Assembly (NCBI RefSeq): GCF_022808935.1
Contig: NZ_JAKZFR010000001.1
Coordinates: forward strand, 186,001-250,000
Direction of reading: 5' to 3'
Source of the DNA: Geothrix sp. SG200
Lineage (GTDB): Bacteria; Acidobacteriota; Holophagae; Holophagales; Holophagaceae
DNA: 64,000 nucleotides
The notes beneath the pieces were generated by a model that saw nothing but the letters and a program-made list of their open reading frames with translations, did not search any database and had not been told where the DNA came from. This document shows, one piece after another, positions 29-3,807 of the stretch (the stretch's first letter is position 1; each line of letters begins with the position of its first letter). The translations under genes and the position numbers were made by a program.

Positions 29-1111
29 TCACCGAGATCTACAGGCCCTAGACGGTAGGACCTCCTTCAGCAGGTTCCTCGTCTCCCGGAGCATGGCGGC
101 GGTGTCGTCCCAGCCCAGGCAGGCGTCGGTGACCGAGCAGCCATAGCGGAGGGTGGATAGGTCCGCGGGGATGGGCTGGTTGCCTTCTTCCAGGAAGCTC
201 TCCACCATGACTCCGACGATGGAGCTGTTGCCGCGCCGGATCTGGTGGGCGCAGTCCTGGAGGACCAGGGGCTGGAGGCGGGGGTTCTTGTGGCTGTTGG
301 CGTGGGAGCAGTCCACCACGATGTTCCCGGGCAGCCCCGCCTTGCGCAGGGCCTCCTCCGCCAGGGCGATGCTGACGGTGTCGTAGTTGGGCCGCCCCCC
401 GCCGCCGCGGAGCACCAGGTGGCCGTGGGCATTCCCCCGGGTGCGCACGATGGCCGCCGAGCCCTGGTCGTTGAGGCCCAGGAAGCTGTGGGGACGCGAG
501 GCCGAAAGGATGGCGTTCACCGCCGCCGCCAGGTCGCCGTCCGTGGCGTTCTTGAAGCCCACGGGCGTGGAGAGGCCGCTGGACATCTCCCGGTGGGTCT
601 GGGATTCGGAGGTTCGGGCGCCGATGGCGGTCCAGCTGATGAGATCGCCGATGTACTGGGGCGTGTTCGGATCCAGGGCCTCGGTGGCCGCCGGGAGGCC
701 GAGCTCCCCGATGCGGAGCAGGAATTCCCGGGCCTTCCGCATGCCCTCCTCGATGTGGAAGGAGTCGTCCATGCGGGGATCGTTGATGAAGCCCTTCCAG
801 CCCGTGGCGGTGCGGGGCTTCTCGAAGTAGACCCGCATGACCAGCAGGAGCGTGTCCGCGACCTCGTCCGCCAGGACCTTGAGCCGCCGCGCGTAGTCGA
901 GGCCCGCCACGGGATCGTGGATGCTGCAGGGCCCCACCACCACCACGAGGCGGGGATCCTCCCGCGCGAGGATGCGCTGGAGATTCCGACGACCGCCGGC
1001 CACGGTCTCGGCCACGGCGTCCGGGACGGGCAGGGCCGCGTGGATCTCCGCCGGGGAGGGCATCCGGTCGAAGGAGTCAATGTTCAGGTTCTCGAGCGCC
1101 TGGTGGGTCAT
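29..1111 (-). CDS. aroG: 3-deoxy-7-phosphoheptulonate (DAHP) synthase, class I
   Basis: Condenses phosphoenolpyruvate and erythrose-4-phosphate to DAHP, the first step of the shikimate pathway to Phe, Tyr and Trp. The 360-aa product has the family hallmarks GPCSIHD (PEP/metal site, near residue 62), KPRTATGWKG, the R-T-S-E-S-Q stretch, and VDCSHANSHKNP near the C-terminus. Length fits AroF/G/H enzymes (about 350 aa). I chose the ATG at 1111 because it follows a strong GGAAGG ribosome site by five bases. A longer in-frame start at 1168 would translate through the terminator hairpin and is rejected. The gene lies downstream of an aromatic leader peptide and attenuator, so supply of charged aromatic tRNAs probably controls it. 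Which amino acid feeds back on the enzyme cannot be read from the sequence. Confidence 0.95.
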   Translation of the reverse strand: MTHQALENLNIDSFDRMPSPAEIHAALPVPDAVAETVAGGRRNLQRILAREDPRLVVVVGPCSIHDPVAGLDYARRLKVLADEVADTLLLVMRVYFEKPRTATGWKGFINDPRMDDSFHIEEGMRKAREFLLRIGELGLPAATEALDPNTPQYIGDLISWTAIGARTSESQTHREMSSGLSTPVGFKNATDGDLAAAVNAILSASRPHSFLGLNDQGSAAIVRTRGNAHGHLVLRGGGGRPNYDTVSIALAEEALRKAGLPGNIVVDCSHANSHKNPRLQPLVLQDCAHQIRRGNSSIVGVMVESFLEEGNQPIPADLSTLRYGCSVTDACLGWDDTAAMLRETRNLLKEVLPSRACRSR

Positions 1112-1127: not shown

Positions 1128-1161
1128 AAAGAAAAACCCCGATCCGGGGAACGGATCGGGG
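1128..1161 (-). terminator. Intrinsic terminator acting as attenuator before aroG
   Basis: On the minus strand a perfect 10-bp stem (CCCCGATCCG / CGGATCGGGG, 5-nt loop TTCCC) is followed directly by TTTTTCTTT, a textbook intrinsic terminator. It lies between the leader peptide stop and the aroG ribosome site, so it would stop transcription before the gene. CGATCCG in its 5' arm is exactly complementary to CGGATCG just after the Tyr-Tyr-Trp codons of the leader. A mutually exclusive antiterminator can therefore form. Confidence 0.85.
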
Positions 1162-1184
1162 TGGTCATGGGGATGTTCCAGGGA

Positions 1185-1259
1185 TCAGGCTGGACCCTCG
1201 CCGTGCCACGCGCGATCCGCGCGCGGGGACCAATAATAGCGATGGAAGCGGGGCGTCAT
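1185..1259 (-). CDS. Aromatic leader peptide of the aroG attenuator
   Basis: A 24-codon reading frame upstream of aroG encodes a peptide with one Phe, two adjacent Tyr and a Trp (F-H-R-Y-Y-W), and a second Trp later. It ends 24 nt before the terminator hairpin. The following codons carry a protector hairpin (CGCGCG, loop CGGAT, CGCGCG) whose loop and second arm can pair with the terminator's 5' arm. A ribosome stalled at Tyr-Tyr-Trp would break the protector and favour antitermination, as in trp and phe leaders. No convincing Shine-Dalgarno lies within 10 nt of the ATG, which is the weakest point. It is too short for ordinary gene callers. Confidence 0.78.
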   Translation of the reverse strand: MTPRFHRYYWSPRADRAWHGEGPA

Positions 1260-1280
1260 GGTGGGGTCCGAAGGTGCTCC

Positions 1281-1309
1281 ATCCTGGACCTGGGGCGCCG
1301 GGGCGTCAA
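1281..1309 (-). promoter_or_regulatory. Candidate sigma-70 promoter of the aroG leader
   Basis: The minus strand has TTGACG (1309-1304), a 17-bp spacer and CAGGAT (1286-1281). This would start transcription about 15 nt upstream of the leader-peptide ATG. The -35 matches consensus at five of six positions and the -10 is fair. Confidence 0.5.
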
Positions 1310-3765: not shown

Positions 3766-3807
3766 TACAAAAATGTAATTAAACCGAGTTGTCATTACAT
3801 TTTTGTC
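3766..3807. promoter_or_regulatory. Paired TACA-N4-TGTA sites, putative upstream activating sequence of amtB
   Basis: TACAAAAATGTA (3766-3777) and TACATTTTTGTC (3796-3807) are inverted copies centred 30 bp apart, part of a perfect 13-bp inverted repeat (ACAAAAATGTAAT / ATTACATTTTTGT). They lie roughly 90-135 bp upstream of the -24 element at 3899, the usual enhancer position for a sigma-54 activator. The 2214 regulator is the obvious candidate ligand. Confidence 0.72.

Follow-up and report, generated by a model that had tools for sequence, protein, structure and literature searches.

A tyrosine-tryptophan leader peptide attenuator as the probable switch of an AroF-type DAHP synthase gene in Holophagaceae, and its relatives before asparagine synthetase genes

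The window analyzed here, a stretch of 64,000 nucleotides from Geothrix sp. SG200, carries on its minus strand a DAHP synthase gene (aroF), which stands at the entry of the aromatic amino acid pathway, and, divergent from it, a superoxide dismutase-like gene on the plus strand, whose reading frame starts at 1391. The element described below lies between the two. All parts that a first-pass annotation of the sequence had named for this region were found on the minus strand within positions 1128-1309. On this strand, the leader (1259-1185) is followed by the terminator (1162-1136) and the DAHP synthase gene (1111-29). The individual features are as follows.

1304..1309, minus strand: likely -35 hexamer TTGACG, 17 nt before CAGGAT; TTGA is invariant in 16 leader-bearing relatives
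1281..1286, minus strand: likely -10 hexamer CAGGAT, kept in nearly all relatives
1185..1259, minus strand: leader peptide ORF of 24 codons, MTPRFHRYYWSPRADRAWHGEGPA and stop, from sequence and conservation
1230..1235, minus strand: predicted sensor codons Tyr9-Trp10 (TAT TGG), at -6 and -5 counted from the chassis Asp
1206..1226, minus strand: protector hairpin 1:2 (CCGCGCGCG-GAT-CGCGCGTGG), codons 12-18, from folding and pairing
1206..1219, minus strand: antiterminator strand 2, CGGATCG and GTGG (the Trp18 codon), which pairs with strand 3
1152..1164, minus strand: strand 3, CCAC and CGATCCG, common to antiterminator and terminator
1136..1162, minus strand: intrinsic terminator hairpin 3:4, 11 bp with a loop of 5, from an independent terminator scan; -20.9 kcal/mol
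29..1111, minus strand: DAHP synthase, type I-alpha, AroF-like (Tyr-type), start MTHQ, from TIGR00034, PDB match and Gly212

Written out along the minus strand, TTGACG-17-CAGGAT precedes the leader ATGACGCCCCGCTTCCATCGCTATTATTGGTCCCCGCGCGCGGATCGCGCGTGGCACGGCGAGGGTCCAGCCTGA, which is followed by ACCCCGATCCG-TTCCC-CGGATCGGGGT-TTTTCTTT and then by aroF. The putative promoter is proposed from its conservation, since a simple sigma-70 scan did not list it. Because the region is intergenic and divergent, a transcript meeting the terminator should start at this promoter, which would be the leader's own. The independent scan found two terminator-like sites against 0.3 expected. The terminator stem had been given as 10 bp; these ten pairs are present, and a closing A-T pair extends the stem to 11 bp, followed by a T-tract at 1135-1127. 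The true start of aroF is MTHQ at 1111, as in the relatives. A longer ORF was rejected; its start at 1168, immediately ahead of the terminator, is not conserved.

The gene had previously been named aroG. Its product matches TIGR00034 with 459 bits, and the best match in the PDB is the Tyr-sensitive AroF 6agl (E 2e-124), ahead of the Phe-sensitive AroG. Moreover, it has a glycine (Gly212) at the Phe/Tyr switch position, where serine goes with inhibition by Phe and glycine with inhibition by Tyr, and glycine occupies this position in all 32 Holophagaceae homologues compared. Based on this closest match and the glycine, the name aroG was replaced by aroF-like.

Folding of the leader region yielded three competing structures: hairpin 1:2 (-16.2 kcal/mol; -6.5 to -16.2 in the orthologues), antiterminator 2:3, in which CGGATCG and GTGG pair with CCAC and CGATCCG, and terminator 3:4. 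The protector hairpin of the earlier description is present and comprises codons 12-18 (1226-1206), and the complementarity between CGGATCG (1219-1213) and CGATCCG (1158-1152) is exact. When tested against leader shuffles, this 7-nt complementarity is only marginal in a single sequence (p about 0.04-0.05). Therefore, we relied on the comparison across relatives, and it is the conservation that makes the pairing secure. In a joint alignment of 32 asnB and aroF elements (see below for the former), pairing holds in 99.7% of the cells of the antiterminator core, compared to 22-59% in slid controls, and in 87% of those of hairpin 1:2. One antiterminator pair varies through GC, GU, and AU, with the compensatory AU in six sequences. 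Hairpin 1:2 and the terminator are mostly invariant and therefore carry little covariation. Thus, the alignment of the relatives' upstream regions, which had been suggested as a check, bore out the conservation of leader codons and stems, but covariation rests on few pairs, given the lack of variation in the terminator pairs and in most of the antiterminator pairs.

The AroF protein is present in 33 of the 47 genomes of the genus. In 16 genomes that were examined, the leader has the same frame, start, and stop, and strands 2 and 3 as well as the terminator are kept; 17 genomes have a match to a covariance model of the element (127-160 bits). The 24-codon leader, the hairpin, the exact 7-nt pairing, and the terminator with its T-tract, as originally described, are confirmed. 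Length, start, and stop are maintained in 14 distinct 24-codon leaders, with TGA, TAA, and TAG interchanging as stop codons, and Phe5 occurs in 13 of these 14. Among the distinct leaders, Tyr9 is found in 14/14 and Trp10 in 13/14, while codons 15-18 (GAT CGN GCG TGG) hardly vary even in their nucleotides. All of the distinct 24-codon leaders have TAT at codon 9 and TGG at codon 10; one relative (L100) has a leader of 25 codons with Tyr and then Arg (TAT CGT) at -6/-5. Leader control of aroF seems to be dispensable, since aroF is present but lacks an intact leader in at least five relatives (L089, L090, L092, L098, L101): the gene has a different upstream region in L089, L090, and L092, and in L098 the terminator is kept, the leader has decayed, and CCAC is lost. 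A scan of betaproteobacterial loci homologous to the enzyme (L003-L081) revealed no leader resembling the aroF leader. Additional aroF 3' fragments were noticed in several genomes (G001:C1:1529560, G004:C1:1560967, G011:C121:52205, G044:C76:77), some of them about 3 kb downstream of the intact gene. Elsewhere in the window, two inverted repeats, ACAAAATTGTA-N18-TACAATTTTGT (2153-2192) and ACAAAAATGTA-N18-TACATTTTTGT (3767-3806), flank a sigma54-activator-like gene (0 expected by chance); L091 and L093 have similar sequences ahead of aroF.

A covariance model built only from aroF elements identified a second element in the same genome (G000:C3:23116-23266, 61 bits, E 1.3e-14). Its leader, MTFPSLRTNRNFNNPLPRANRAWAGEGLT, precedes the gene for asparagine synthase B (asnB; NF006949, 730 bits). 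The same model finds asnB-type elements in most genomes of the genus and in several other genera. In 25 distinct asnB leaders, the codon at -6 relative to the chassis Asp/Asn is Asn in 25/25, and the chassis Trp (+3) is present in 25/25. In two other genera, homologous leaders with Asn codons are located before an asparagine synthetase A-like gene of archaeal type (L165, L166, L177), suggesting that related attenuators are found with two kinds of asparagine synthetase that are themselves unrelated. Like these elements, the aroF element combines the RA[D/N]RAW chassis and a sensor codon at position -6 with a strand 3 and a terminator that match, and it appears to be one copy of a Holophagaceae attenuator family rather than a one-off. 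A search of 396 genomes of the phylum gave no convincing element outside the family; the matches there (E 1e-4 to 1e-2) were treated as noise. Four weak model matches (L144, L146, L147, L182) were read and rejected as chance. At a further locus (L167, G071:C114), an RVDRAW-type leader has its Asn codons off the usual position, and the next gene encodes 579 aa with no family match.

In summary, the region upstream of aroF contains a short ORF rich in codons for pathway end products (Y9 in 14/14, W10 in 13/14), an intrinsic terminator between this ORF and aroF in 16/16 relatives examined, a mutually exclusive antiterminator competing with the terminator, and candidate sensor codons placed such that, according to our model, a stalled ribosome would mask strand 1 and free strand 2. 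None of the Rfam leader families (Trp_leader, Phe_leader, and others) reached its gathering score, all matches being at chance level (E >= 0.34), and the Rfam T-box model gave no match to a T-box riboswitch. Ribosome-mediated transcription attenuation is very likely and by far the best explanation for this arrangement. The earlier proposal that an aromatic leader attenuates a DAHP synthase gene is thus strongly supported by conservation, pairing, and the position of the sensor. That the whole system is an ordinary constitutive terminator behind a chance ORF has next to no probability, despite the marginal single-sequence complementarity, given that 16 genomes conserve the start and stop of the leader, its sensor codons, and the pairing, and that a constitutive terminator sited between promoter and gene in this divergent intergenic region would silence aroF.

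If ribosome-mediated attenuation operates here, it would proceed as follows. With charged Tyr and Trp tRNAs, the ribosome would reach the leader stop codon, hairpin 1:2 would form behind it, and strand 3 would pair with strand 4, resulting in termination at 1136-1127. A shortage of Tyr (or Trp) would stall the ribosome while its A site holds codon 9 (or 10), so that it covers the 5' arm of hairpin 1:2 and leaves CGGATCG...GTGG free. This free strand 2 would then pair with CCAC..CGATCCG (2:3), blocking the terminator, so that aroF is transcribed. Hence, the switch very probably turns aroF on when tyrosine (or tryptophan) runs short.

The position of the sensor was modeled with the 3' edge of the ribosome at +15, that is, 15 nt past the first P-site base; results were similar with +12. 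The mean modeled probability of the antiterminator is 0.94 for a stall at -6, 1.0 at -5, 0.54 at -4, and 0 from -2 on. In the model, strand 2 stays free when the ribosome stalls with its A site at codon 9 or 10, a stall at codon 11 half covers it, and stalls from codon 13 on give no antiterminator, a pattern that holds across the orthologues. The Asn leaders show the same stall geometry in the model. The conserved Tyr-Trp pair is therefore predicted to sit at the decision point for stalling. Equilibrium folding without a ribosome gave antiterminator probabilities from 0 to 1.0, depending on the orthologue, and often predicted the antiterminator for early-codon stalls too. Since the antiterminator is also stable for early stalls, silence without starvation would depend on hairpin 1:2 forming first; we infer that it does so during transcription, for kinetic reasons.

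These results point to Tyr9-Trp10 as the sensor, rather than all three aromatic amino acids. A leader that mainly senses Trp, as a trp-type attenuator with W10 as the decisive codon, is unlikely. W10 is indeed the last fully productive stall codon and is present in 13/14 distinct leaders, but Tyr9 is more conserved and kept where W10 is replaced by Arg (L100), and the enzyme has the glycine of Tyr-regulated DAHP synthases.

It had also been suggested that the leader responds to the three end products simultaneously, through Phe5, Tyr8-Tyr9-Trp10, and Trp18, which we consider quite improbable. Phe5 is as frequent as stated above, but it lies four codons before the conserved stall position and precedes the point at which a stalled ribosome masks the protector hairpin. 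Several close relatives have Phe at codon 11, but in the window this codon is Ser, and a stall there would partly cover strand 2. The second Trp, likewise proposed as a sensor, lies in the alternating RNA stems and is equally invariant (25/25) in the Asn leaders before asnB, which argues for a structural role of Trp18. Furthermore, phenylalanine appears to have its own attenuator. The genome encodes two further DAHP synthases, both of type II, one of which (G000:C5:106045-107337) lies about 1 kb behind pheA. This pheA-type II DAHP synthase cluster is preceded by an FFFSF leader, MTAARAFFFSFRTPGARVGGV, with its own terminator (L253, G000:C5:104798-105045, plus strand). No leader was found in the stretch read for the other type II enzyme. 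Overall, it is highly probable that the Tyr9-Trp10 leader is a classical ribosome-mediated attenuator that senses charged tRNA-Tyr and, secondarily, charged tRNA-Trp, controls an AroF-type DAHP synthase, and is homologous to the asnB element, most likely as its duplicate. This best explanation stands on the sequence, its conservation, the compensatory pairing, the placement of the sensor codons, and the phylogenetic distribution; expression, stalling, read-through, and the direction of the duplication are the parts of it that we infer.

The choice of synonymous codons is consistent with stalling at this position. TAT makes up 11% of the Tyr codons and AAT 13% of the Asn codons in the long ORFs of the window. 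At codon -6, however, TAT is used in 16/16 aroF leaders and AAT in 29/32 asnB leaders. Asn in the asnB leaders is encoded by AAT in 22/27 cases at -8 and in 13/13 at -7, whereas AAC accounts for 28/30 at -10, ahead of the stall window. This pattern fits selection for stalling at -8 to -6, although a need to keep the RNA unstructured could also play a part.

A tree of 110 DAHP synthases places the Holophagaceae proteins within Betaproteobacteria, split into two separate groups. The leader-bearing AroF proteins form one group with several losses, in which L100 branches first (98/97); a protein from another genus (L111), encoded without a leader, falls outside this group. The TAT CGT of L100 at -6/-5 is intermediate between AAT CGG (asnB) and TAT TGG (aroF). 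In addition, asnB elements span more genera than aroF elements, and the latter show a higher mean similarity to asnB elements from their own genus (68%) than to asnB elements from other genera (60-66%). The intermediate in L100, the wider range of the asnB elements, and the closeness within the genus suggest that the asnB element was copied to aroF and that its sensor codons were changed. Since the tree of these short elements is poorly supported (44.9/73), this step is likely rather than proven. The aroF element is thus most likely an asnB element that was duplicated onto a horizontally acquired aroF, with AAT CGG changing to TAT TGG. An independent origin, with both elements alike only because they form the same kind of alternating hairpins, is unlikely. 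Attenuators do arise more than once, as the visibly different chassis of the pheA and proB/proC leaders of the same genomes indicate, and the element tree would leave room for it. But within the genus, the aroF-only model scores asnB elements at about 54-86 bits, residues of RA[D/N]RAW-x-G without an obvious structural role and the spacing from stop to terminator are shared, and the greater similarity within the genus also speaks against it.

Further leaders were noticed in these genomes, before pheA (FFPFSF), proB (NPRPNHPTP), and proC (HPRPS). The proC leader of the own genome (L145, G000:C5:230879-231019, plus strand) has Pro codons, a terminator, and a different chassis. Likewise, leaders with Pro codons, terminators, and a different chassis precede proB in relatives (L171, L172, L174, L211, L213, L214). 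In another genus, FFYYFGF and FYYFGF leaders, whose chassis resembles that of the pheA leader, precede a type II DAHP synthase (L168, G057:C144; L212, G059:C51). The own genome was searched with the models and in targeted stretches, so the attenuators listed for it are a lower bound.

That one leader can sense more than one amino acid is known from the ilvGMEDA/ilvB and thr attenuators, which use branched-chain or Thr/Ile codons, not aromatic ones. The trp (Rfam RF00513) and pheA leaders of Escherichia coli follow the same logic of protector, antiterminator, and terminator, with end-product codons upstream of strand 2. The Holophagaceae element differs from them in its Tyr-Trp sensor, in aroF as the regulated gene, and in matching no Rfam family at threshold. 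Leader peptide attenuation of a DAHP synthase gene through aromatic codons has likewise been described for AroR of Corynebacterium glutamicum, located before aroF (Neshat et al. 2014, as described in PMC11802643; PMC4046766). AroR has Phe-Tyr-Phe codons and is reported to respond to Phe, not Tyr. This leader of an actinobacterium differs from the Holophagaceae element, which has a Tyr-Trp sensor and is shared with asnB. The uORFC-13-1 motif before aroF in Acholeplasma (PMC8632094) also combines a predicted uORF with an intrinsic terminator before a DAHP synthase gene, but has Phe codons only, belongs to a different phylum, and comes with no described link to an asparagine attenuator. Leader attenuation of DAHP synthases thus has precedents, described for Corynebacterium and predicted for Acholeplasma, and it is the apparent asparagine relative that adds interest. 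A limited literature search revealed no description of leader attenuators that sense Asn, of duplicated leaders with exchanged sensors, or of Pro-sensing leaders on biosynthetic genes.

For Acidobacteriota, a survey from 2010 found hardly any leader attenuators with an associated function (PMC2965389), and the element described here would give such attenuators a function in this phylum. If our interpretation is correct, Holophagaceae have several leader attenuators (Asn, Tyr/Trp, Phe, Phe/Tyr, and Pro) and, with them, a leader peptide equivalent of the DAHP synthase isozymes that E. coli regulates separately. We consider it fairly probable that the chassis is modular and duplicable: the RNA switch would have been kept while two codons were point-mutated (Asn-Arg to Tyr-Trp), so that a resident Asn attenuator, one of several Holophagaceae leaders, took over a horizontally acquired DAHP synthase. 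This would be an apparent natural rewiring of an amino acid sensor through codon changes in a duplicated leader. Because an intermediate form seems to persist in one genome, the evolution of attenuators may be directly testable here by codon swaps.
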